Source: a virus
IMG/VR virus record: IMGVR_UViG_3300020473_000088
Span: 1 to 31,101 of that record
Reading direction: 5' to 3' (one strand)
Length of the DNA stretch: 31,101 bases
Positions within the stretch are counted from its first letter, which is position 1. The number at the start of each line of letters is the position of its first letter. Positions 7,845-26,037 of this stretch are shown one piece after another. A program made the translations under genes and the position numbers. Under the pieces are notes generated by a model. The model searched no databases. It saw only the letters and a program-made list of their open reading frames with translations, and was not told where the DNA came from.

Positions 7845-10800
7845 TTAGATTGATCCGCCTGCATTTGTTACCTCGAAGTCAAGAGCAATAAACTCTACGC
7901 TTCTTGTAGGCTGCAAGAATATCTTTCCTCTAATTGTGTTATTTTCAATATCTGCCTGTGTGGTGGTAGTTGTATCTATAACTACCTTGTATCTATCAAC
8001 TCCGCTTTGCTCTTGTATAGCTTGTAATATTGGGTTTACTAGAGCACTAAACTTCTCGAGCGTTGACTGTCTGTTTGGTTCGAAAAGTATAAGATTTGCA
8101 ACAGACCGTACACTTCTTCTAATTTCCAAAAGAAGCCTTCTAACATTAACTCTATCAAGTGCTGATGATGCTGCAAGCAGTGTCTTCTGGCCGAAGACAA
8201 CCAGACCCGTACCTGGAAAGTCTGTTAGCGGATTTATATCTGCGTCGTAAAGATCGTCTAGGTTTTGCCTATTGACCTCAACTGCAGCACGCTGTGCATT
8301 TCTCAGCGCCCCTCGAGCGAAGCCTGCTGGAGCAAACCATGGGTGACCTACTGAATCATTCAATGCGAATGCACCGAGTGTGACAACTGATGGTGGGACC
8401 TGTACGTTAGTTAAGGTCATGGGGTCTTGAACGATAACATCTGGGAAGTAGGCTGCAGCAAATGATGTGTCAAGCGCTCTGTTTAAGAAGTCAGAAACTG
8501 TATTTGAAACACTTACGTTTTGTGCTGACCCAGTCACAACTGTGTTGAGTGTGTCTCTCTCTTCAATATCCATAATATACATGGTATCAAATCTATTCTC
8601 GACTGCTGTTATTGCAAAATCTGTGATACCTGTCTCTCTCATTCCGGGTATCGCTAGAAGTTTCATTGAGACGTCTGTGGTGTTGCCCATTATATCAATA
8701 GCTTTTCTAAATGATCCTACGGTAGAGCCTTTTACTCCACCTTGATTGGTCTCATCATCCATCTCTCTGGCTGCTGCAGTGTTGTTAAGCTTGGTCTTAT
8801 CTTTGTCAAATATGTTGACACCATCAAAGCCGCCCTGGAGGAAGAAACTAAACTTCGCATAATTTCTATTGGCACTGTGCTTAAGGTCGTCAACCTTAAA
8901 TGCCCGGGTCTTTCCAGTACTGCTATCATCTGGTGTAATGTTGCCTTTTCTTACGTAGGATGCTGAAGACCATTCAAGGACATCAGCAAGACCGTCGGAT
9001 CCAGTTCTAACCCTTACATTCTCAAGTGTGAATTTGTTATTATTAAACCTATCACAATCTAAAATTGTTCCACCAACATCAGCGACGCCAGCATTGTTTC
9101 CAACAGAAACGTCTTGTGATGAGCCTTCAAATCTCGGGAAATATTTAGCATAAGATTTAATCGTAGGCTCAGGAAGTGCAATCTTGTTAGGCTCAGTTGG
9201 ACTTTCTTTCCTGTCAAACTGAATCCCCCAGTAGAACATTGATTTTGCTCTTTTTGTCACGCCTGTCCCAAGCGTTATATTCTCTCTGAATGGAACTGGT
9301 GGCTCGTTTGTATTTTGTATCCAGTCACTTCCGGTTACCCAGGCATCAGACGCCATACGACCATCACCTGTTGAACCTAGCTGATGTCGGATTCCAACAA
9401 GCTGACCAGACCCTGATGTTACAAGGTGATACGGTCCGCGGAAACCCATTGGCAATGCTGTATCAGGCACCTCGCTAGACGCAAGTGCTTCTGACATTTC
9501 AATTCTTATGCGTGTAGATCTATTTGGATGATCACCTTCAACAACCAGCTTTTGGGATCCTGTATTTTGATCGAAGTCAAAGAATATTCTCTGATCACCT
9601 ATGACTCTAGCTACAAACCTCTCGGAATTAGGATCTAAGCTACACCCTCTAAATGCCTCGAGCACAACAGGCTGTTCATCACTATCTCCAAATTCCCTGA
9701 CTATGACATCAAAAGATCCAAACTTATCTACTGTCGAGCTTGATTTCTTGATATTCTCTATTGATATCTTGTACTCAGTTGTAGGGCCAGCACCGTCTGA
9801 CAACGTGAGAACTCTAAAGAGTTCATAAGGTACACCACCGAAATTTTGTGTGAAGACAAAGGGAGAAAATGCTGTTGCAAACCTATCTTGAAAGTTTTCG
9901 TAATTAGGCTTAGTTGCAGTTCCTGCGTTGTACCCGGCGGAGCCTGACGTTACAAATACTACATCTTCTGCATCTGCGTTCTCTGATGGTGGAATAACAC
10001 CCGATCCCGTTGCAACTGCAAGTGCTGGATGAATATCATAGTGTGTGTATAGAACATGACCTTCCTCTTCAATCTTAAGAGGGTCTGTATTGAATACATT
10101 TGCAAAGTAGTTTTGTGCTCTAGTGTCCATAGAAGCAGTAAGGACTCGCTTCGTTGAGCTAAGTCCTTTATGGCCGTTGAGATACATGATAAACTCTTGA
10201 TTTATCATCTTCATTGAGCCGGTTGTTCCACCCCTAATAGTGTTGCTATTTGGATTTCCTATGGTTGCAGCAGTAGGGGGAACAGAGCTAAACTTTCCTG
10301 ATGCTGGACATTTATTTCCAGAGAGTGTTAGGGCAACACCACTTGCTGCCATGACGATTCCTCGCAAGATTGGAACAGATGCCGTTCGGTCACCACCGGT
10401 AAAAGATACTGACCCGAGAGGCGTTCCCATATTTACGTCAGTTACGTTTATTGCATTTCCAGCAGTACCAGGTTCGGCTGCTGTTATGGTGACGCTCGTA
10501 GAAGGCGACCCAATCGCTGCACTAACTCCGGCTACGCCGTTAGCGGCTGTTCCTGCTGTGTCACTGCGATATCTTACTTTTGTTTCGTCTCCACCAGAGC
10601 CATTAATTGCCAAAATAAGATTTGAAGCTGAATCAGCATCAGATGATTCTTTTTTAATGTGAATTAAGTTTGTTGGAGATGCACCTGGGTCACTCATCGT
10701 GTCTACAAATCTTAAGGTGAGCGTTACTCCAGCGCCGCCAATCCCTGCGGGTACAGTTAATTGAAATTCGTCTAGATCACCTACGGAGGCACATTTAATA

Positions 10801-11309
10801 GCATTTGCTGCTGATGCTTTAACGTTGGGTCCAGGCGATTGTATTCCCGCTTCACTGAATATTGAGCTTCCATTTGACTCTGACATGAAACAGCCTAGAA
10901 CATACGTTCTTCCCTGGACACCTTCAGCATTAGCATTTGGATTAACACCCACAAACCCAGATGCCTGGACTTGCTTTGCACCAACAACAAACCCTGCATT
11001 TGTTACACGACCTGTATTAGAGTCTCTTTTTTTACCGTCTCCGCAGCCAAGCACCCTTAGGTATGTGCATGATCCTGCATTCTGGAGCCACTCGTTTACA
11101 GCAAGCGGTCCAAACTTTTCTCCATCAGAGCCACCAAAAGTTGCAACAAAGTCAGCAAAGCTTCCAATTGTTACCGGAACAAAAGCGGGTCCGTCGTTTG
11201 CTGTACCAATTATTCCCGCCGGGACACCAACGGGGGTGGATCCCCGAGGTCCAGACGTGTCTATCTCTCTGCTGCTTACTCCGGCGCTACGAAATGTAAG
11301 TTCAGGCAT
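7845..11309 (-). CDS. gp18: Tail sheath protein, copy 2 (T4 gp18 family, 1154 aa)
   Basis: The N-terminus (FRSAGVSSREIDTS, VGVPAGIIGTANDGPAFVPV) and the last 200 residues (SVGHPWFAPAGFARGAL, VVFGQKTL, RVNVRRLLLEIRRSV, TRSVEFIALDFEVT) are typical of contractile-tail sheaths. The C-terminal block holds the handshake strands that link subunits into the contractile lattice. At 1154 residues it is far longer than T4 gp18 (659 aa); the excess lies in the middle and N-terminal third, including a Ser/Thr/Gly-rich beta domain near residues 180-310 with the pattern AEPGTAGNAINVTD, likely surface-exposed. It starts with ATG at 11309 behind GGGAG, 38 bases after the first sheath gene. The two copies are clear paralogs at both ends but diverge in the middle. 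It may form part of a mixed sheath or a specialised section of it. Confidence 0.88.
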   Translation of the reverse strand: MPELTFRSAGVSSREIDTSGPRGSTPVGVPAGIIGTANDGPAFVPVTIGSFADFVATFGGSDGEKFGPLAVNEWLQNAGSCTYLRVLGCGDGKKRDSNTGRVTNAGFVVGAKQVQASGFVGVNPNANAEGVQGRTYVLGCFMSESNGSSIFSEAGIQSPGPNVKASAANAIKCASVGDLDEFQLTVPAGIGGAGVTLTLRFVDTMSDPGASPTNLIHIKKESSDADSASNLILAINGSGGDETKVRYRSDTAGTAANGVAGVSAAIGSPSTSVTITAAEPGTAGNAINVTDVNMGTPLGSVSFTGGDRTASVPILRGIVMAASGVALTLSGNKCPASGKFSSVPPTAATIGNPNSNTIRGGTTGSMKMINQEFIMYLNGHKGLSSTKRVLTASMDTRAQNYFANVFNTDPLKIEEEGHVLYTHYDIHPALAVATGSGVIPPSENADAEDVVFVTSGSAGYNAGTATKPNYENFQDRFATAFSPFVFTQNFGGVPYELFRVLTLSDGAGPTTEYKISIENIKKSSSTVDKFGSFDVIVREFGDSDEQPVVLEAFRGCSLDPNSERFVARVIGDQRIFFDFDQNTGSQKLVVEGDHPNRSTRIRIEMSEALASSEVPDTALPMGFRGPYHLVTSGSGQLVGIRHQLGSTGDGRMASDAWVTGSDWIQNTNEPPVPFRENITLGTGVTKRAKSMFYWGIQFDRKESPTEPNKIALPEPTIKSYAKYFPRFEGSSQDVSVGNNAGVADVGGTILDCDRFNNNKFTLENVRVRTGSDGLADVLEWSSASYVRKGNITPDDSSTGKTRAFKVDDLKHSANRNYAKFSFFLQGGFDGVNIFDKDKTKLNNTAAAREMDDETNQGGVKGSTVGSFRKAIDIMGNTTDVSMKLLAIPGMRETGITDFAITAVENRFDTMYIMDIEERDTLNTVVTGSAQNVSVSNTVSDFLNRALDTSFAAAYFPDVIVQDPMTLTNVQVPPSVVTLGAFALNDSVGHPWFAPAGFARGALRNAQRAAVEVNRQNLDDLYDADINPLTDFPGTGLVVFGQKTLLAASSALDRVNVRRLLLEIRRSVRSVANLILFEPNRQSTLEKFSALVNPILQAIQEQSGVDRYKVVIDTTTTTQADIENNTIRGKIFLQPTRSVEFIALDFEVTNAGGSI

Positions 11310-11347: not shown

Positions 11348-14300
11348 TTAGTCAAAGCTTACACCCGATGTTGTTATAATAAAGTCAATTGCTATAAATT
11401 CAACTGCTCTTGTGGGCACCAAGACTATTCGACCGTTTAGCCTATTAGACTCAACGTCTTCCTGTGTGTTATTGGTGTTATCCATGACGACACGGAATTG
11501 GTCAACACCCTGTTGATTCTGGATAAGAGCCAGCTGGGGTGTCACCTGAGATATGAATCTTGCTCTAGTTTGCGGTGTATTTTGCTCGAACAAGATTGTG
11601 TTAGCTATATCTCCAACTATTCTCTTTACCTCTAGTAACATTCGCCTAACATTCACTCTATCCAGTGAGCTTCTAGCTTGCTGAAGTGTCTTCTGGCCGA
11701 ATATTACAAATCCCGCACCTGGGAATGATGCTATAGGGTTAATCCTTGCATCGTATAAGTTGTCTCTATCACCGGCAGTAAGTCTTGACTGCGTGTTGAC
11801 AACATTTGCCAAAGAAGCTCTGTTAAATCCTGCAGGGGCGAACCACGGATATGAGACAGAGTCATTAAATCCAAGTGCTCCAAGTGCTGTTACTGATGCA
11901 GGGACTTTCACAGGATTTCCTGTTGAATCATCTATGATAGAAACATCTGGGAAGTATGTGGCAGCATAGTTTGTATTAAGTGCTCTGGACTCAAATTGTG
12001 ATATTGTCTTTGATACTGCGGGCTTCTTCTTACTATCAAGATATATTCTATTATTGTCTGAGTCATAGTTTGCTATGTCTAGCAGGTAGATGGCCTGGCC
12101 GAAGGCCTCTATTCGATCTATAACATAGTCAGTAACAAAGCTGTCTCTTATCCCCGGGATGGCAAAGATGTTAATCCTTGTTGTCATCTCATCTGTCATG
12201 ATCTCTGCAGCGGCTCTATATGAAGCTATAATATTATTGAACTTACCTGTCCCTATCTTCATATCTCCGCTGAGACCTATATCTAGTGCTGTGTTAGCAG
12301 CCGGGCTTTCAAGGCTAGCCTTTCCGCCCGTATCACTTGTGGACGATAGGTCATTCATCCTTGACATATCCAAGTCTAGAATATTTAGACCGTCAAATCC
12401 GCCGTAAAAGATATTTGTGAATTTAGCATAATCGGTAAACCTATTAAACTCAACAGAAGATGTTAAAGAAAGCAAGGAGCCGAAAGTCACTCTCTTGATT
12501 TGGTTAGCTGTTGGATCTGAAACAGTGTAGTCGTTAGGATCCCATGCTCTGTTTCTAAGATATGCTGTTTCCAATATGTGTTCTGCAGCAGTTCCTGTCA
12601 AGTGAGCATCAACTGTCTTTCCGAGAGAGCTCCCTGATTTTATTGTCATACCCAGCGCAACTCTACAGAGAGTAAACTTGTTATTGTTAAAATTGTCAGC
12701 TCCTGACCCAGTTGTGAAAAGATCGAGCTTTTGAATACCGAGCATTTTCGTATAAGTCGTTAACAATGGGTTAATCTCAGAAGAGGCATTTGCATTTAGA
12801 ATGGCGCCTGCCAGTGTTCCTGTCCTAGGAACTCTTGTCACCTTGATACCCCAATAGTATCTTCCATCTACAGTTTCACTACTACCGGGGGTACCGACCA
12901 TGGTAGCATCACTAAATGTGACATTACCTCTTGTCTGCTTGAAGAGGAAAGGAACAGGTGGGACTATTGAACCGGTGAGTGTACCCTTGTCAAGATAGCC
13001 TACATTAGGCCCTTCATCTACACCTCCAAGAGGTGCTGCTAGCCTGGCAGGTGTCATGCTACCAAGGCCGCGACCTCCCATAGAGGCGCTTAGAGGGGCA
13101 GCAGAGGCAGCCTTAGTAGCTGTTGTACTCCAGCTGATGGCCGAGTCGGTCAGCTTATCATTTGTCTTCAGGGAAGGCAAACCTCTAAATCCAAAAGGAA
13201 GCGCGTCTCCAGGAATGTCTCTATTCTCTACAGCTGGGTTCATAACAATTCGAACTCTCTGCGAAACGTTAGCGTATTTTCCAGATGAAACAAATCTTCT
13301 CTCTGAGGCGCTGGTTGCATCAAAGTTGAATGTTACCTTTAAATCTCCGATCTTCTTTGCAACATAGCCATCATCGCTAGGGTCAAGCGAGCATTGATGA
13401 TACTGCTCTAGTATTTCAGGATTAGTGTCAGAATCGTGAAAAGTTCTTACAAGAACCGTAAATGTTCCAAACGGATTAGACTTATCTGTAGATTTCCTTA
13501 TATTTGAGATTGATACCTTGTACTTAGCGCTTACGTTAGCTCCGTCTGATATAGTTTCAAAATGGAATAAATCATATTCACGGGAACCGTAAGGTTGAGA
13601 GATAAAAGGTGTTGTCTGAGCGTTGCTGTATCTTGTATCAAATCTACCATACGCATCTCTAAACGCTAGGGACGCAATACCTGCATTAGATGATGTTTTT
13701 GACGATCCTGAAAGAATAGCAATTGTACCTGACATGACTCCCGGGTGAGTTGTTGCAACTTCGTCCTCTACGGCAAAATCTGCGTAAAGAAGATGTTGCT
13801 CTCTTTCAAATAGTGCAGGATCTGTATTTAAGATCTTAGATATATAGTTGTCACTTGAAGGATCGAGTGAAGCAGTATAAATTCTAATACCTACGTGACC
13901 TTCATCATTAAAACTTTGCTTTCCTGCTGAGTTTGCGCTGGTTGAAAGAACAAGCTTAAACTCATTAAGATTAAGTGGTGCACCGCGCCTGCCTAGCGGA
14001 TAGGCACATATACTTCCCGTAGGTTGAATGAAGTTTGCTGTGGCATTGAGTGCCCCTTTGATATTGGGAACCAAGCCAAAGCAGGAGCCTGTAGGTGTGA
14101 AAAGCATAGCCCGAACTAGATTTAGATGCTTGCCGTTACTCCGGTTCCCATCTGTAAAGCTATTATTATCTGCAAATATGGGATAACCAGTTGCAGATCC
14201 TGTCCGTATTGTACCTGACATGTAGTGCTGAGCACATATAAACTGAACGGCTCCGTTGTGACCTATGCTATTTTTAACGTTGCTTGTAGTACCTTTAATA

Positions 14301-14635
14301 ATAAAACCAGCATTTTTGACAGTTCCCGCAGTCATCGTCACTGCTATGTCACCAGCTGTATCATTAGCACCAGCACCGAGCACTCTCAAGAATGTAACTG
14401 CTGTTCTATTTTTGAGAAACTCATTGACTGCGTAGGGACCCGCCATGGTTGGATCTAAATCACCAAACCTTGCTTTGAAATCTGAAAAAGACCCGAGGGT
14501 AACAGGAATAAACGCTGGACCCATTTCTGAAGTTCCAACTACTCCAGCAGGAACCCCTACGACTTCCTGCTCTCTTTGAGACAGATCAATCTCTCTCTCA
14601 AAAAACCCTGGCGATCTGAAAACCTGTTCGGCCAT
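11348..14635 (-). CDS. gp18: Tail sheath protein, copy 1 (T4 gp18 family, 1095 aa)
   Basis: It shares the sheath signature with its downstream neighbour: an N-terminal block with VGVPAGVVGTSEMGPAFIPV and GPYAVNEFLKN, and a C-terminal block with VSYPWFAPAGFNRASLAN, VIFGQKTLQQARSSLDRVNV and a final strand region TRAVEFIAIDFIIT. In the virion the family encloses the tube and shortens on contraction. An in-frame TTG at 14638 precedes ATG at 14635; I choose the ATG because AAGGAG lies at good spacing. The middle of the protein carries large variable beta-rich insertions, explaining a length well above the 659 residues of T4 gp18. It follows the tail-completion gene, so neck, completion, sheath and tube genes run in one block. 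Which copy forms the bulk of the sheath cannot be told from sequence. Confidence 0.9.
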   Translation of the reverse strand: MAEQVFRSPGFFEREIDLSQREQEVVGVPAGVVGTSEMGPAFIPVTLGSFSDFKARFGDLDPTMAGPYAVNEFLKNRTAVTFLRVLGAGANDTAGDIAVTMTAGTVKNAGFIIKGTTSNVKNSIGHNGAVQFICAQHYMSGTIRTGSATGYPIFADNNSFTDGNRSNGKHLNLVRAMLFTPTGSCFGLVPNIKGALNATANFIQPTGSICAYPLGRRGAPLNLNEFKLVLSTSANSAGKQSFNDEGHVGIRIYTASLDPSSDNYISKILNTDPALFEREQHLLYADFAVEDEVATTHPGVMSGTIAILSGSSKTSSNAGIASLAFRDAYGRFDTRYSNAQTTPFISQPYGSREYDLFHFETISDGANVSAKYKVSISNIRKSTDKSNPFGTFTVLVRTFHDSDTNPEILEQYHQCSLDPSDDGYVAKKIGDLKVTFNFDATSASERRFVSSGKYANVSQRVRIVMNPAVENRDIPGDALPFGFRGLPSLKTNDKLTDSAISWSTTATKAASAAPLSASMGGRGLGSMTPARLAAPLGGVDEGPNVGYLDKGTLTGSIVPPVPFLFKQTRGNVTFSDATMVGTPGSSETVDGRYYWGIKVTRVPRTGTLAGAILNANASSEINPLLTTYTKMLGIQKLDLFTTGSGADNFNNNKFTLCRVALGMTIKSGSSLGKTVDAHLTGTAAEHILETAYLRNRAWDPNDYTVSDPTANQIKRVTFGSLLSLTSSVEFNRFTDYAKFTNIFYGGFDGLNILDLDMSRMNDLSSTSDTGGKASLESPAANTALDIGLSGDMKIGTGKFNNIIASYRAAAEIMTDEMTTRINIFAIPGIRDSFVTDYVIDRIEAFGQAIYLLDIANYDSDNNRIYLDSKKKPAVSKTISQFESRALNTNYAATYFPDVSIIDDSTGNPVKVPASVTALGALGFNDSVSYPWFAPAGFNRASLANVVNTQSRLTAGDRDNLYDARINPIASFPGAGFVIFGQKTLQQARSSLDRVNVRRMLLEVKRIVGDIANTILFEQNTPQTRARFISQVTPQLALIQNQQGVDQFRVVMDNTNNTQEDVESNRLNGRIVLVPTRAVEFIAIDFIITTSGVSFD

Positions 14636-14695
14636 CAACCAATCTCCTTAAAATGCTTATTTTCACTTATAATTATCAACCAACTATCCAATTGT

Positions 14696-16611: not shown

Positions 16612-17793
16612 TCAACCCATGAATATTGCCATGCCGTTAGGCATAGGAACAAATCTCAGCTGTTTATTTATAGACTCTGCCCTCTGAGCAGCTGACTCCA
16701 TAAGCTTGTCGTAAGTCATAGTTTCAAGCATATCTTTAAGCTGTGTAACTAGCACACTCTTGTCTTCTCTACCTTGTGTCACAAGGTCAGTTCCATTTAA
16801 AGTTAAGTCTGCACCTGGTATTGGAACAGTGGAAAATTTAGATCTAACAAGACCTAGCATCTCTTTGGAAAGTGCCAAAGAATACTGTCTTATCCACTGT
16901 CTACCTATGCTGTTGATTCTTGAATATATTAGATTTCCAAACGGAATATTAGAAAGATTAGAAACACCCTCTATAGTATCGTCTTTATATGCAGGATCAA
17001 GGGGGTTAGGGTGGTACATTACCCTTAGAAACAACTTTTTAGGATCATTTGATGTAGGTGTCGGGTATATTCTTATGTTTGTTCCTATCATCTTGTAAGA
17101 GTAATTTGATCGTCTGACCCTATTTGATAAATCAAGCTGGCCAGCTCTAAGGATATCTTCAAAGACTGGTAGTACGTAGAATATTGTCTCTGGTGTAAAA
17201 GATTCAAAGCTAAATTCATTATTTAGATAATTGATAGCTGATGTAGTGTCGAAAAATCTATATGCTGCTTGCGGAGAGAAGTGAAATACTTCGCTAATTT
17301 TTAACTTTGTCTTTCGGCCGGCAGTTGCATTACTCCCAGAAGTAAAAATCTTATCTCCTGCCCCGTTAGTAAGAGTGCTATATATGTCGTAATCTTGCTG
17401 CCCTGTCTTAAGGCTTATGGATCCGGATATCATATTATAAGATCCACCTACACCTGCTTCCATTGCATACGGCTCAGCAAATCTATTAAGATATTCTAGG
17501 TTTTCTCTAGGCAGTTTTTGCTCAGATCCCGAGAGGAAACTGCCTGTTGGCATTCCCATAAACTGGACCATTTGAGACTTGGCTTGGTATTGGTTAAGAA
17601 TAGACCCATATTCTAGGGCTGCCTCTTCAAGCGCACCCCAGATTTGTTTCTTTGTCAATTCAACACTAAGGATATCATCACCTAGCTTTCTTTTAACAAA
17701 TGTCACGATTCTATCTGCTTCAGTTTGAAACACAGAGTCGCTGTCAAAAAAACCAAACGGGGTGGGTTTTGTTGTATTAGCAAATGAAGCCAT
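16612..17793 (-). CDS. gp13: Neck protein (T4 gp13-like)
   Basis: The 393-residue product has an N-terminal block FVKRKLGDDILSVELTKKQI followed by an ALEEAALEYGS helix, a common start of connector/neck proteins. Its C-terminal block (LALSKEMLGLVRSKFSTVPI, GADLTLNGTDLVTQGREDK, then LRFVPMPNGMAIFMG) matches, from memory, gp13 of T4-like marine phages; T4 gp13 is 309 residues. The middle (residues about 100-260) is beta-rich and variable. In T4, gp13 joins gp14 to close the head after packaging. It starts with ATG at 17793 behind TAGGTGAG. It is the first gene after a 142-base gap following the tubulin-like gene and begins the neck-tail block; it ends four bases before the gp14-like ATG. Confidence 0.7.
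   Translation of the reverse strand: MASFANTTKPTPFGFFDSDSVFQTEADRIVTFVKRKLGDDILSVELTKKQIWGALEEAALEYGSILNQYQAKSQMVQFMGMPTGSFLSGSEQKLPRENLEYLNRFAEPYAMEAGVGGSYNMISGSISLKTGQQDYDIYSTLTNGAGDKIFTSGSNATAGRKTKLKISEVFHFSPQAAYRFFDTTSAINYLNNEFSFESFTPETIFYVLPVFEDILRAGQLDLSNRVRRSNYSYKMIGTNIRIYPTPTSNDPKKLFLRVMYHPNPLDPAYKDDTIEGVSNLSNIPFGNLIYSRINSIGRQWIRQYSLALSKEMLGLVRSKFSTVPIPGADLTLNGTDLVTQGREDKSVLVTQLKDMLETMTYDKLMESAAQRAESINKQLRFVPMPNGMAIFMG
16665..16672 (-). promoter_or_regulatory. T4-late-promoter-like octamer TATAAATA (weak candidate)
   Basis: Minus strand TATAAATA, about 57 bases upstream of the gp14-like ATG at 16608 and inside the end of the gp13-like gene. It matches the T4 late core, but such AT octamers occur by chance at about this frequency. 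Confidence 0.18.
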
Positions 17794-17935
17794 ATTTAAT
17801 TCTCACCTACAGACAGGGCTATCTAACTATTAATTATTAGACTGCCAGTGAGAGTTAAATAATCTTATAAATACAAATGTGACATGCAGAGAGGTATTTT
17901 TATCTATCCTACTCTGTTATGCAGAAATAAAAAAA

Positions 17936-19390
17936 TTAATTAATTCCTGTTAACATCGTAATTGCCACCAGACCGGGCAATTTTTCACGAACGTAGACGC
18001 CAGAAAACAGCGTATCAGACCTTCCTCCGACGTAAGAGATTGCTGCCTCTAGATGATTGCTTAGCTCAGGATCAGAAGCCATCTCAGATGTCACTACAAG
18101 CAACAAGACGCCAGAGTTGATTTTACCCCTGGGTTTTGGACACGGTGATCTCTGGAGACAATTTTGATATAGTAGAGAGCCTAAATCTGGCTCCTTCGGG
18201 TTGCGCATCACTGTTGTACCTAAAAATATCCTACCGTCAGAGTGTAAACATCTCTCGAGATCTTTTGAATCGAATGTCTGTATAGGAGATGATTCGCTTG
18301 AGAGCTTAAGAACCTGAGATAAAAGTTTTGCAAAAGTTCTATTAGCAGCAGGATACATCCCGAGCATTCCAACCTTGCCCCTAAGAAGCTGAAGCTGTCT
18401 CTCGTTATCAATAACAATGTGTGGATGTGACTGAACATCAGACAGGGCTGACTCGTAGTTTGTCTTAATTGTTGGGTTAAGAAGCTCTTGTGCAGAAGGT
18501 GATGTCACGATGTAAACGACTTTTCCACTAGCTTGAACTGATTTAAGGTACCTATTAAATGATTCATCAAGTGCGTGAGTTGCGCTTCCGGTTCCGCCTC
18601 CTCCGCCAAGAAGAACAAACAACCAGTCCACTCTCCCAACTCGTGTGCGAAGGCAATCCTCAACTAATGCACCATTATCCTTTAGAACACGCTTGCCGAG
18701 AGTGATATTCTTGCCGACGCCATCTGCACCAGGGAGTAAAAGAAAGTTATCATCATTTAAACCTGCTGGCCGGTCTTTTACTGTTGTGTTAACGACAAGC
18801 GTTCTATTAAACCCCTCGTCAATAAATGCCTTTGCTATTTTTCCTCCGCCGCCACCGACGCCTATAAAGCCAACAGATACAGATGAAACTGCTGTATTTT
18901 CAGGAAGAAGGCTTCCGCTACCGGTGTCAAATGTCTCATCATAATCTGAAACAAAATCAAAATCGTCAAAATCATTACTCATGTCTATACTTTCCGTTTG
19001 AATTCTTGGTTGTGGTTCTGGTGCCTGCTGTGCTATAGGCTGTGCTCTAACAGGCTCTCTGGCTGGGATGGCCTGGGTCATCACCGGAGGAGGCTCAACA
19101 TCAACGTGATCACTCGAAGCCTGAGGTTTTGGTGATAGTGTTTGTACCCTAGGTGTTGGGACAGTTATTTTTACCTTCTGACCTTCACCTTCTTCCGAAC
19201 TTGACTCATTATGCACTTCAGCTTGAGATTCAGGTGCAGCTGGATTTTGTTTTATAGGCTCACCATCCACAAGGCCTGATGCTATATCTTTAATATGCTG
19301 CATCTGTGCCTCTTTATAAAAATCATCATTTGGCATTTTCTTAGGCTCCTTCTTCGCCGGTCTCATACTTTTCTTAACTGTGCTAGGCAT
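17936..19390 (-). CDS. Tubulin/FtsZ-superfamily GTPase with long disordered N-terminal region (484 aa)
   Basis: Residues about 172-484 match the tubulin/FtsZ fold. The glycine-rich T1 loop GVGGGGGK (177-184) corresponds to GVGGGG of FtsZ. The T4 tubulin signature GGGGGTGSA is at 262-270. The T6-like segment IVIDNERQLQLL (325-336) parallels FtsZ IPNDRLL. The T7-like TFDSKD (372-377) keeps both acidic residues of FtsZ NLDFAD, so GTP hydrolysis at a filament interface is plausible. The last 60 residues (SGVLLLVVTSEMASD onward) look like the FtsZ C-terminal beta subdomain. Residues 1-170 are Pro/Gln/Glu-rich, apparently disordered, with an acidic aromatic patch at 141-155 (FDDFDFVSDYDETFD). No transmembrane segment is seen. 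The gene lies between the terminator-bounded 118-residue gene and the neck genes and has AAAAGG before its ATG. Phage tubulins (PhuZ, TubZ) position or segregate DNA; a head-assembly or virion role is equally possible here. The family is well supported; the role is inference. Confidence 0.85.
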   Translation of the reverse strand: MPSTVKKSMRPAKKEPKKMPNDDFYKEAQMQHIKDIASGLVDGEPIKQNPAAPESQAEVHNESSSEEGEGQKVKITVPTPRVQTLSPKPQASSDHVDVEPPPVMTQAIPAREPVRAQPIAQQAPEPQPRIQTESIDMSNDFDDFDFVSDYDETFDTGSGSLLPENTAVSSVSVGFIGVGGGGGKIAKAFIDEGFNRTLVVNTTVKDRPAGLNDDNFLLLPGADGVGKNITLGKRVLKDNGALVEDCLRTRVGRVDWLFVLLGGGGGTGSATHALDESFNRYLKSVQASGKVVYIVTSPSAQELLNPTIKTNYESALSDVQSHPHIVIDNERQLQLLRGKVGMLGMYPAANRTFAKLLSQVLKLSSESSPIQTFDSKDLERCLHSDGRIFLGTTVMRNPKEPDLGSLLYQNCLQRSPCPKPRGKINSGVLLLVVTSEMASDPELSNHLEAAISYVGGRSDTLFSGVYVREKLPGLVAITMLTGIN

Positions 19391-19458
19391 ATAATAACTA
19401 TCCTTTTACATGGTTGTAAACCTATCTTATAGGATACAGATGTTATTAAATATTATTT

Positions 19459-19493
19459 AAAAAATAAAAGGCACCCTATAAAAGGGTGCCTTT
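19459..19493 (-). terminator. Rho-independent terminator downstream of the 118-aa gene
   Basis: Minus strand: AAAGGCACCCT, loop TTTAT, AGGGTGCCTTT, followed by TATTTTTT. The 11-base-pair stem is perfect and GC-rich with a T tract. It lies just after the 118-residue gene stop and before the tubulin-like gene. Confidence 0.92.
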
Positions 19494-19515
19494 AAATCAT
19501 TGGTAGCTAACAATA

Positions 19516-19872
19516 TTAACTTGTCGACAGACCACAGATCCACTTTGTGCCATTATAGATACAAACTGCAAATTCTCCGTCTGCATTTAATGTAAGATCT
19601 CCACCAAGAGACGTATTGGTGGATTTTAATACAACATTGTCTGTATCATCAGTATCATGCATGATTAATTTAACTGCACCCGCTTCTGCTGAGGCAGGCA
19701 GTGTAAATTGGCTAACACCCGTTCCAACAGTTACAAAAGTAGAACCATCTAAATTTTCGGTTCCAGAAGTTGTATGAAATGAGTTAACGTGAAAACCTCC
19801 GTCACCTATGTGAACCCCAGTACCTGCGTTTTGCACAAGCCCCTTTAAAGCTGTATAAGCTACTTTTGGCAT
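19516..19872 (-). CDS. Small beta-rich, probably virion-associated protein (118 aa)
   Basis: The product starts MPKVAYTALKGLVQNAGTGV, then has a repeating beta-strand pattern with QFTLPASAEAGAVKLIMHD in the middle and EFAVCIYNGTKWICGL near the end. An 'FTLPA..GAVK.I' segment followed by a terminal 'YNGTKW' is a layout seen, from memory, in small phage structural or decoration proteins. It has a strong ribosome binding site (AAAAAGGAGA) and a 71-base leader with TATAAT upstream. Terminators lie on both sides, so it is probably transcribed on its own. It follows the capsid gene, so a capsid decoration or fibre-base role is likely, though unproven. No signal peptide, membrane segment or enzymatic motif is visible. 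Confidence 0.75.
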   Translation of the reverse strand: MPKVAYTALKGLVQNAGTGVHIGDGGFHVNSFHTTSGTENLDGSTFVTVGTGVSQFTLPASAEAGAVKLIMHDTDDTDNVVLKSTNTSLGGDLTLNADGEFAVCIYNGTKWICGLSTS

Positions 19873-19943
19873 AATCTTTTCTCCTTTTTAAATTAGTGAG
19901 GTTAATGCTCCCGATGCTTCCAATTCCCTGCGGGTGTCAGGTG

Positions 19944-19949
19944 ATTATA
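19944..19949 (-). promoter_or_regulatory. Candidate -10 element (TATAAT) for the 118-aa gene
   Basis: Minus strand TATAAT, exact to the sigma70 -10 consensus, 71 bases before the ATG at 19872 and about 60 bases past the capsid terminator. No good -35 hexamer lies at 16-18 bases; a TTGAAT sits 22 bases upstream. A phage-modified polymerase, as in T4, may not need a -35 element. Confidence 0.35.
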
Positions 19950-20000
19950 TGAATTGGACCTACTTCTAACTATTCAACTCGCTCTTAAATAGCGAAATGT

Positions 20001-20034
20001 GAATAAAAAAAGGCGGCCTATAAAGGCCGCCTTT
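20001..20034 (-). terminator. Rho-independent terminator after the major capsid gene
   Basis: Minus strand: AAAGGCGGCCT, loop TTAT, AGGCCGCCTTT, then a T run. The 11-base-pair stem is perfect and very GC-rich. Same architecture and similar loop as the terminator at 19459-19493, on the other side of the 118-residue gene. Confidence 0.93.
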
Positions 20035-20051
20035 AGTCAACATTATCTAAA

Positions 20052-21962
20052 CTAGATGACGTTGAGATCCTGAACGGTAACTGTACCGTAGAAGTCAGCA
20101 CGAACCATCTTCTTACCGTAGCGAGTCATCACGCCCTTACGAGGGGTGAAATCTTCTGGTTGGAAGATCGTAGGTGTAACGATCAGTGGTACATAAGGTG
20201 CGTATACGTAACCTGTCTCAAGGTAGCTTCCACCCTTATATCCAACAAGTACCTTGTTCCGTGGGAAGTAAGGATCCTTGTAGACTGTGAAGCGGTTGCT
20301 CAATGAGCCGATTGGCGTAGCACCAAGCTGCATTGGGTTACCGACCTGACCTTGGCCATCAAGCGTGAGGCTAGGCTTGTAGAGGACGGAAGCCTCAAAG
20401 ATTGTTGCAACATCAGGAGAAGTGACAATGAAGTTCGCAGAGCCACGGAGTGTCTTTCTGTGAATTTCGTTGGCAACATCAATGATGGTCTCAACAAGTG
20501 TCTCGTACCACTCACGAACTGTACCTGTGAACTGAGGTCCGGTTGCAAGTGTCGAAGAACGTGTTTGCTCAGTACCAAGCTTCTTGTTGACGAACTTACC
20601 AGGCATACGTGACCAGTAGTAGTTAGCACCGGCAGCCTCTGTAAGAAGGTCATTAAGAATCTCACGATCGATTTCCAGAGCGATCTGCTCGGAGAGGATC
20701 TGTGTAAGCTCAACCTCAGCATCCAAGCTGTGATAAGCGTTCAGGTCCTGAGCAAGTTCTGGAGACCAGCGAGCCCGCAACTTACGGGTAGCAGCTGTTA
20801 CAGCAATTGACTCGATCTTGATGTCAATCTCTGGTATTCTTACCGAAGGTGATGACTGGAAGTCAGACTCAAACGATGGAATGGTCAGAGTTGAACCAAC
20901 GCCAGACTCAACGTCAAGTGTTGGAGATACGGCGAAGGATGCTGTAAGGTTGTTTGTGTTGTTAGAGTCCTTGTGGGCTCCGGATACAACGCAAAGCAAT
21001 ACTGAGTTAGCATCTGTTCTTCCTACCATGGGCTTGGATGTGAATCCTGTATCTGCCTTGTAGGTACCAATTTGGTTAAGACGTCTAATGTTCAGTATGT
21101 TACCACCGCCTTGGAACTTTTCGCCAGGAGCAGAGAGACCAAGCGAGCTGACCGTATCTGCTGAGAATAGCGAGATGTCCTTAACGTTAGTAAGGTCTAC
21201 AGAACTTGGGAATACATCGAGATCGATGAATAGAAGCTGGAACTGACCGCTAGCTGCAGCAGTAGGATCTGCCTCAATTGCATCGAGAACTTGTGGATCG
21301 TACTGAAGCATCTTTCCGTCTGTACCGGTTGCAAAGCACTTTCCACCATCCTGAAGTAGACGCTTTCCTTTGAATGCACCCGATGCAACAAGAGCTGTCG
21401 GGTAAAGCATCGAAGAAGAGTGAACCTTAGAATAGGTCGCACCTGCTAGGTCATACATTCCACCTGCACCAAGTGAACCAGAGCGTACGCCCTTGCCAGC
21501 TGGGTTGTTGTAAATGGATTGTCCTGGCTGATAAGTTGCAGCAGCAGCGTCACCGGCAGCACCAGTTTGAACATTTGCATCTCCACCGACGCGTGTTCCG
21601 TAGGTGTAATCAAGATAGAAGAGCAGACCAGAAGGTAAGCTCATAGGCTGAATGGACACAAGCTCATTGGCAATGAGACCTCCGAAGACTCGACGAACGA
21701 TCGGGAATGCGATGTTCGTAAATCCGCGTAGATCACCAGAAGCCGATGGGTTGTTTCCACCTGTTCCGATTGAGTTTTGCTCACGGAGAAGTTGTGAGGC
21801 TTGGTTCTCAAGGAGCATTGACATGTTTTCACGGTTTACACCGTCAAGTCCGCGAAGAAGACCGGTACGAGACCATTTCTCGACGAGCCTTGCATTTGCT
21901 GCTCCAAGATGCCTTTGCCTTATACCTTCAGTAAGCTGATTTAAGGTAAATTTATTTGACAT
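20052..21962 (-). CDS. gp23: Major capsid protein (T4 gp23 family, 636 aa)
   Basis: The order of elements matches gp23. A helical N-terminal propeptide (residues about 1-65) is followed by a Gly/Asn-rich linker, the conserved FPIVRRVFGGLIANELVSIQ and PMSLPSGLLFYLDYTYG, and C-terminal blocks such as NFIVTSPDVATIFEAS, YKDPYFPRNKVLVGYKGG and a final VRADFYGTVTVQDLNV. The protein has the HK97 fold and forms the hexamers of the head. A gp21-type cleavage site (L/I-x-E) may lie at LLE (50-52) or LRE (59-61), which would remove the propeptide; the precise site is inference. At 636 residues it is longer than T4 gp23 (521 aa), so it carries an insertion, probably in residues 110-340. SD AAAGGAAG precedes its ATG. 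It follows scaffold gp22, as in T4, and ends at a strong terminator. No separate gp24 vertex gene is seen in this window. Confidence 0.95.
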   Translation of the reverse strand: MSNKFTLNQLTEGIRQRHLGAANARLVEKWSRTGLLRGLDGVNRENMSMLLENQASQLLREQNSIGTGGNNPSASGDLRGFTNIAFPIVRRVFGGLIANELVSIQPMSLPSGLLFYLDYTYGTRVGGDANVQTGAAGDAAAATYQPGQSIYNNPAGKGVRSGSLGAGGMYDLAGATYSKVHSSSMLYPTALVASGAFKGKRLLQDGGKCFATGTDGKMLQYDPQVLDAIEADPTAAASGQFQLLFIDLDVFPSSVDLTNVKDISLFSADTVSSLGLSAPGEKFQGGGNILNIRRLNQIGTYKADTGFTSKPMVGRTDANSVLLCVVSGAHKDSNNTNNLTASFAVSPTLDVESGVGSTLTIPSFESDFQSSPSVRIPEIDIKIESIAVTAATRKLRARWSPELAQDLNAYHSLDAEVELTQILSEQIALEIDREILNDLLTEAAGANYYWSRMPGKFVNKKLGTEQTRSSTLATGPQFTGTVREWYETLVETIIDVANEIHRKTLRGSANFIVTSPDVATIFEASVLYKPSLTLDGQGQVGNPMQLGATPIGSLSNRFTVYKDPYFPRNKVLVGYKGGSYLETGYVYAPYVPLIVTPTIFQPEDFTPRKGVMTRYGKKMVRADFYGTVTVQDLNVI

Positions 21963-25082: not shown

Positions 25083-25559
25083 TTATTCAGAAAATGCAAG
25101 GGCTGCCCACTTATTAGCTGATTCGCTAAAAAGCTCAGTTGGATCAGCTGCAGCTGCAGCTCTTGATGCTGCATCACCCTGCCCAGCGGATGGACCTTGA
25201 GTCTCTGCTCGGTACTGATTTTGCAGTGTCGTTCGAGCTGTGTCTTCAAATATTGAAGACAGGACAGGGTCGCTGGTAAGGGATTGAGATGCTGCCTTAA
25301 TCTTACTTTCCTCTAGTTTGGGATGATTTTTTTCTGAAGAGTTATATGAAATATTATCTAGGCCTGTTCTTCTAGGTGCAGTGTGTTGAGTATTCTGCTG
25401 CTGGCTACGCAATCCGGCTCGATGCTCATTTAAAGCTGATATCTTATCTGAGTTAGAGCTGTAACCTACTGATTGATCAACCATAAGCCCTTCCTGTAAT
25501 ATTTCAACTAGGCAATCCTTGACTACGCTCTTTAGTGCCTTTTTACTAATTTTTGCCAT
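25083..25559 (-). CDS. Unrecognised protein with a C-terminal scaffold-like WAxLA motif (158 aa)
   Basis: The frame extends to an ATG at 25616, but the ATG at 25559 has GGAG upstream and begins one base after the preceding stop, so I use it. The N-terminal helix (ISKKALKSVVKDCLVEILQE) is followed by a Gln/Ser/Asn-rich, likely disordered centre, and the tail is Ala-rich, ending ANKWAALAFSE. The scaffold ends SRWAKLAGIKN, so both carry an R/K-W-A-x-L-A pattern within ten residues of the end. This suggests a shared binding tail, perhaps for the portal, capsid or protease. Function is unknown. Confidence 0.7.
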   Translation of the reverse strand: MAKISKKALKSVVKDCLVEILQEGLMVDQSVGYSSNSDKISALNEHRAGLRSQQQNTQHTAPRRTGLDNISYNSSEKNHPKLEESKIKAASQSLTSDPVLSSIFEDTARTTLQNQYRAETQGPSAGQGDAASRAAAAADPTELFSESANKWAALAFSE

Positions 25560-25560
25560 T

Positions 25561-26037
25561 TTATCCAACTCCTTCGAATTTTTTTCTTCCAATTCCATCT
25601 GCAAACGGTTTGCCATCTGTCCCTGAGAATACTAAAGTCCCAGTGAGAACAGGAAACTGATCTGCGCTTACAGCGGAGAGTCCTGCTATTATTGTGAAAC
25701 CTGTCGTTGCTGATGCTGACCTCACCCAGACCTGCTTGCATCTAATTTCAAGACGAGGTGACATCTTTCCTGCCGGTACTTCAAACCAGTTTTTGGTTGT
25801 GTTTCCAGGAATTGGACCTTTTGGAGACCCATCAACACCTTTCGCAGTAAATCCAACTCTAAGTGTATTTGCACCCGTGTTTGTAACACAGAAAAATCTT
25901 GTAACCTGCGGGAAGTTAATTACCTCTTCTACTACACCCAGGCCATTCACTGCCCCTGAGCCCGTGACATATGGAATACCAGAAACTTGATATGCAGGGA
26001 CGAAGTTTGGTCCCATACTTTTTGACCAGTTAGGCAT
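25561..26037 (-). CDS. Virion-like beta-sandwich protein, paralog B (158 aa)
   Basis: The product and its upstream neighbour both begin NWSKSMGPNFVPAYQVSGIP and share the core FF.VTNTGA.TLRVGF and NWFEVPAG.MSPRLEIRCK, then GFT..AGLSAV..DQFPVLTG. They are clear tandem paralogs. The VTNTGANTLRVGF pattern suggests a beta-sandwich in which a backbone-binding surface is formed, as in many phage capsid or tail decoration proteins. ATG at 26037, after a three-base gap from its paralog. A head-decoration or completion role is plausible from the position after the prohead protease, but no characterised family is recognised. Confidence 0.75.
   Translation of the reverse strand: MPNWSKSMGPNFVPAYQVSGIPYVTGSGAVNGLGVVEEVINFPQVTRFFCVTNTGANTLRVGFTAKGVDGSPKGPIPGNTTKNWFEVPAGKMSPRLEIRCKQVWVRSASATTGFTIIAGLSAVSADQFPVLTGTLVFSGTDGKPFADGIGRKKFEGVG

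Follow-up and report, generated by a model that had tools for sequence, protein, structure and literature searches.

A further clade of tubulin/FtsZ-like GTPases encoded by large uncultured, mostly T4-like phages

Results

A tubulin/FtsZ-like gene lies between capsid and neck genes

The window analysed here is a 31,101-nucleotide stretch of viral DNA (IMG/VR record IMGVR_UViG_3300020473_000088), in which a minus-strand open reading frame at 19390-17936 (17936..19390) encodes a phage tubulin/FtsZ-like GTPase of 484 amino acids plus stop, hereafter TUB. Its upstream neighbour on the same strand, which we place outside the system, is the gp23 major capsid protein gene (20052..21962; Pfam Gp23, E=4.5e-78), and its downstream neighbour, also on the minus strand, encodes a gp13-like head-tail adaptor (16612..17793; PHROG 211 'head-tail adaptor Ad2', E=8.8e-12). 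An earlier sequence-only reading of the window had placed a tubulin between capsid and neck genes, and these two matches confirm that placement. Terminator-like hairpins were found on the minus strand both after gp23 (20009..20034) and 5' of TUB (19467..19493; 11 pairs with a T-rich tail), and these make it probable that TUB heads a transcription unit of its own. The 118-aa protein encoded upstream of TUB gave only weak beta-sandwich Pfam matches and no DNA-binding domain, and no tubC-type iteron-like array was present within positions 17700-20060. Elsewhere in the window, two tandem tail-sheath-like paralogues of 1154 and 1096 aa (7845-11309 and 11348-14638) are kept in many relatives.

All four nucleotide and catalytic motifs of a tubulin/FtsZ GTPase occur on the minus strand at the residues given by the sequence-only reading: the T1 loop GVGGGGGK (residues 177-184; 18839..18862), the T4 tubulin signature GGGGGTGSA (residues 262-270; 18581..18607), the T6 loop IVIDNERQLQLL (residues 325-336; 18383..18418) and the T7 loop TFDSKD (residues 372-377; 18260..18277), in which both aspartates are invariant in the family. 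Residues 174-333 matched the Pfam tubulin model PF00091 (E=4.2e-6), though at 27.6 bits the match falls under the curated cut-off of 33 bits. Searches of the PDB returned S. aureus FtsZ by phmmer (E=5e-7), and CetZ (3zid, 7e-8, the best PDB profile match) and FtsZ (~1e-7) by profile; no solved relative exceeded ~20% identity to TUB among the matches listed. An AlphaFold2 model built with 24 relatives as input was confident over residues 161-484 (pLDDT mostly >90) and fell below 50 over residues 43-158. Foldseek and the model together delineated a complete core (residues 161-484; 17939..18910, minus strand) comprising the GTPase domain, H7 and a C-terminal subdomain to the last strand, the full fold that had been anticipated for this region. 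The best fold match was FtsZ (4dxd; E=6e-19, TM 0.78 by target length), with TubZ (4ei7) and CetZ at E ~1e-18. An arm-less family member of 344 aa (L012) was modelled with a mean pLDDT of 93 and a pTM of 0.90, and TUB ends at the last core strand both in sequence and in the two models. We regard the tubulin/FtsZ fold of TUB as practically certain, and its loops and predicted structure indicate that the family very probably binds GTP.

A variable N-terminal arm carries one conserved patch

Preceding the core is an N-terminal arm (residues 1-160; 18911..19390, minus strand) that is variable, not conserved and mostly predicted to be disordered. The sole conserved part outside the core is an acidic-aromatic patch, DFDDFDFVSDYDETFD (residues 140-155; 18926..18973, minus strand), with conservation in the arm limited to D-F-x-F-(V/I)-x-x-Y and low confidence in both models. 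The sequence-only reading had picked out both elements; the patch is indeed conserved in the family, and the long disordered arm is present in the window without being a family trait. With 176 residues before T1, the window arm is the longest among 92 members (median ~77); in the shortest complete members the arm measures 36 residues, and these proteins start straight at MSDFDFIDHYG. In TUB, an in-frame AAGGAG (19346..19351, minus strand) lies 5' of an internal ATG (Met19, 19336-19334) and forms a candidate second start. A Shine-Dalgarno-like site and an ATG, both in frame, also lie ~19-30 codons into the ORFs of many other long-arm members, so the arm may be partly optional. We also observed that 26 of 97 tubulin ORFs begin with a MAS(S/T)(V/T)K-like sequence, a start nearly unique to the tubulin gene in these phages, and that in many tubulin ORFs it is followed by an internal in-frame ribosome-binding site and ATG.

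TUB belongs to a conserved family of uncultured phages

IMG/VR yielded 25 relatives with a single-protein query and at least 283 with profile queries; with other patterns, at least 418 contigs of uncultured phages, up to 293 kb long, were found to encode TUB relatives. Each of 15 large records (110-293 kb) carried exactly one tubulin copy. No TUB relative was found among the PLSDB plasmids or, by tblastn with the window protein and a divergent member (L010), among the 50,697 named phage records of INPHARED, and the five nearest named capsid relatives, which include Flavobacterium phage immuto and two huge uncultured phages, do not have a tubulin of the TUB type.

All aligned members (76/76), which were at least 55% identical to the reference member, share the T4 GGGTGS, the T6 DNE and the two T7 aspartates without exception, along with many further invariant residues. 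T1 reads G.GGGGGK in nearly all members and GGAGGK or GGAGNK in divergent ones, and thus the loops whose loss in relatives had been named as counter-evidence are retained, with only minor variants of T1. At the first T7 position the TUB family has T, S or A in place of the Asn of FtsZ. Alignments and models show the core, with its nucleotide loops and catalytic T7 aspartates, to be under strong purifying selection (dN/dS of 0.02-0.06 in the family, where dS was estimable). In a tree of 33 sequences, in which the PhuZ branches are long, the TUB family, FtsZ and PhuZ formed three separate groups, and in profile-profile comparison the family lay at about the same distance from FtsZ, aligned over 215 columns, as from PhuZ, aligned over 102. 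TUB is thus a member of a further phage tubulin/FtsZ GTPase clade in large uncultured, mostly T4-like phages, as its divergence outside the loops had led the sequence-only reading to suspect.

The head-neck position is one of several

Across 148 distinct contigs, near copies included, the tubulin gene lay in or near the virion block in ~90 (~60-61%) and downstream of a phage tmRNA, at most 2.5 kb away, in 25 (17%), with neither head genes nor tmRNA in the fetched flanks of the remaining 33 (~22%). At least four virion-block slots were used: gp23-gp13, gp21-gp22, before gp21, and ~5-7 kb upstream of the large terminase. On a tree of 82 members these contexts required 16 changes; for the gp23-gp13 slot, well-supported branches force at least five changes. 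The gp23-gp13 gap ranged from 154 to 6538 bp and held the tubulin in 9 of 49 loci spanning the interval. In five large genomes whose gp23 is 66-68% identical to that of the window, the tubulin was ~80-155 kb from gp23, and among 12 further records with a close gp23, all of them fragments, it was present in three and absent from nine.

The gp23-gp13 interval (window 17793-20052; L125-L202) can also host other accessory genes, PhoH occupying it in Flavobacterium phage immuto and Microcystis phage Mel-JY01. The interval is prone to insertions and in this resembles the hyperplastic regions known from T4-like phages, where they separate structural modules (PMC2984593). The head-neck position of TUB is real but not fixed, and on its own is no proof of a head function; a virion or head-maturation role, which the sequence-only reading had drawn from the position, is not established, given a variable slot, a distant gene in five genomes and, in the window, a terminator-like hairpin that sets TUB apart from the gp23 side. 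Repeated use of virion-block slots fits late expression. The A/T-rich motifs AATAATTA and TAATTAT were enriched 5' of TUB in head-block loci and are at most candidates for a late promoter.

In the 25 tmRNA-associated contigs (L002, L036, L046, L056, L059, L060, L063, L073, L078, L079, L084, L085, L093, L258 and others), the tmRNA gene (with tags such as ANDNVEYDYALAA) shares the strand of the tubulin match and ends 51-1544 nt 5' of it, with differing outer neighbours. A tmRNA was present in 15 of 23 large records. We considered and rejected a functional coupling of tubulin and tmRNA: because in several large records the tmRNA is far off, or lies on the opposite strand at a distance of 2-3 kb, we read the adjacency as a place rather than a partnership.

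Host and setting of the phages

Phage-like contigs with the tubulin were binned in two Flavobacteriales-related MAGs. Shine-Dalgarno sites preceded 17 of 23 window genes (background 0.28) versus 4 of 24 in a Flavobacterium phage, and owing to this frequency we did not accept a Bacteroidota host despite the binning. The phages are probably marine, to judge by the IMG sample numbers and by the hydrothermal-type MAGs. Many unrelated small proteins of these phages (in L066, L069, L074, L057, L042 and L010) have an N-terminal peptide like MKLLREYIRELLTE, and a 177-aa protein of the window (25083-25616) has a similar stretch. The peptide is reminiscent of the T4 capsid-targeting sequence, and its carriers may be packaged, injected proteins.

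Discussion

Given the conserved loops and the T7 acidic residues, a GTP-driven filament is the simplest reading of TUB. TUB subunits would stack head to tail, with each GTPase site completed by the T7 loop of the adjoining subunit, and GTP hydrolysis would drive a dynamic filament. TUB has no C-terminal tail or knuckle and its patch is conserved, from which we infer that the N-terminal acidic-aromatic patch might do a job comparable to that of the C-terminal acidic tail of PhuZ and TubZ, gripping the neighbouring subunit or docking cargo. In the late phase, replicated phage DNA, proheads or filled heads could be positioned or moved by the filament. TUB would then perform a task like that of PhuZ, but with no phage nucleus and without being a PhuZ. 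For PhuZ, the literature describes both positioning of the phage nucleus and travel of capsids along the filaments (PMC13282480 and a reference therein). A phiKZ chimallin query detected the phiKZ control and found no chimallin in 12 large genomes, with the proviso that a very divergent one could escape a single-sequence query. With the conserved loops and the PhuZ precedent, this makes a late, PhuZ-like filament without a nucleus our best guess. We also infer that the sites beside gp23 or tmRNA are strongly expressed, which would suit the quantities that a filament protein requires.

These parts do not carry equal weight. That TUB forms a filament is likely on its sequence and predicted structure; that it positions or traffics phage DNA or capsids is a claim we would put a little short of even. 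The explanation as a whole, a GTP-driven filament that is PhuZ-like without being PhuZ and has phage DNA or capsids to position or move, has in our judgement about an even chance of being right. Several observations count against a filament with a positioning role: the patch is of low confidence in both models, the T7 Asn is replaced by T, S or A, ~22% of the 148 contigs have no head genes or tmRNA in their flanks, and many related phages may lack the gene, to go by nine of the 12 close-gp23 records, which are fragments.

Three other roles have to be weighed, and we rank a block of host division above partition in a carrier state, and that above a virion role. TUB could keep the cell undivided by co-assembling with, capping or titrating host FtsZ or its partners; its core is FtsZ-like, and small phage inhibitors of FtsZ are known, namely lambda Kil and T7 gp0.4. 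Set against this are an identity to FtsZ of ~20%, the missing C-terminal FtsZ tail and an intact T7 catalytic loop that is invariant in the family and would be superfluous in a mere poison; we consider a division block unlikely. A TubZ-like partition filament segregating phage genomes in a carrier or pseudolysogenic state would suit the standing of TubZ among the best fold matches, and a phage-encoded TubZ partition system is known (as cited in PMC7824862). In the window, however, no iteron-like repeats surround the gene and no TubR-type neighbour was recognised, no plasmid homologue was found, and TUB lacks the TubZ C-terminal tail, all of which renders partition quite improbable.

The virion block itself, within or near which ~61% of contigs carry the gene, and the gp23-gp13 location in the window would suit a role in the virion or in head assembly, with the acidic-aromatic patch docking TUB to capsid or neck. 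That role is the least probable of the three: the position is unfixed, with at least four virion-block slots, the tmRNA site, other places and 16 context changes on the tree, close relatives lack the gene at the slot or altogether, and in the window TUB probably has a transcription unit of its own.

Tubulin is treated as a hallmark of the phiKZ-like or Chimalliviridae group in two surveys (PMC9123017; PMC11835377), and a huge-phage study mentions PhuZ (PMC7162821). The literature searched held no description of the TUB clade, which is no proof of absence. One earlier survey used its own profiles and a 30-bit threshold, and most tested TUB-family members scored below 30 bits against the Pfam tubulin model, which may explain how such proteins escaped notice. 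The family extends the tubulin superfamily by a well-conserved branch, clearly apart from PhuZ and carried by phages in which, across the 12 large genomes, no phage nucleus protein was found, and it makes cytomotive filaments in phages without a nucleus a testable proposition. Only tentatively do we suggest that large T4-like marine phages have their own tubulin cytoskeleton in the open cytoplasm, nucleus-free and with an N-terminal acidic tail instead of a C-terminal one, by which phage DNA or capsids are moved or centred. If true, ocean phages would commonly place infection under cytoskeletal control, which would then be no speciality of the Chimalliviridae.

Comparison with known tubulins

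Among viral proteins, the best structural match was A0A6J5RW92 of an uncultured Caudovirales phage ('FtsZ Cell division GTPase'; Foldseek E=1.4e-24), which is similar in length to TUB. Because its identity is only 20%, against at least 55% to the reference member for aligned members of the TUB family, we do not assign it to this family. CetZ (3zid) was the top PDB profile match (7e-8) and, like TubZ (4ei7), a fold match at E ~1e-18, whereas no TubR/centromere setting was recognised around TUB in the window and TUB lacks a C-terminal tail. FtsZ shares the same core, with a profile alignment over 215 columns that runs through T7, but is ~20% identical and groups apart in the tree. TUB ends T1 in K rather than N, has IDNE in T6 where FtsZ has IPND, replaces the Asn of the T7 NxDxxD by T, S or A while keeping both Asp, and has no C-terminal linker or conserved tail peptide.

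PhuZ, like TUB, is a tubulin/FtsZ GTPase encoded in large phage genomes (hhalign E=5e-8, 102 columns). The phuZ gene of phiKZ also lies near virion genes, ~9.5 kb from the tail sheath gene, so the earlier statement that phage tubulins do not sit beside virion genes was too strong. The C-terminal acidic knuckle of PhuZ is required for polymerisation (PMC3678025), whereas both models of the TUB family lack helix H11 and the acidic knuckle and tail, and the conserved patch of TUB is N-terminal. Most TUB records carry T4-like capsid genes, and in the tree the TUB family forms a clade separate from the phiKZ-type PhuZ of the Chimalliviridae.
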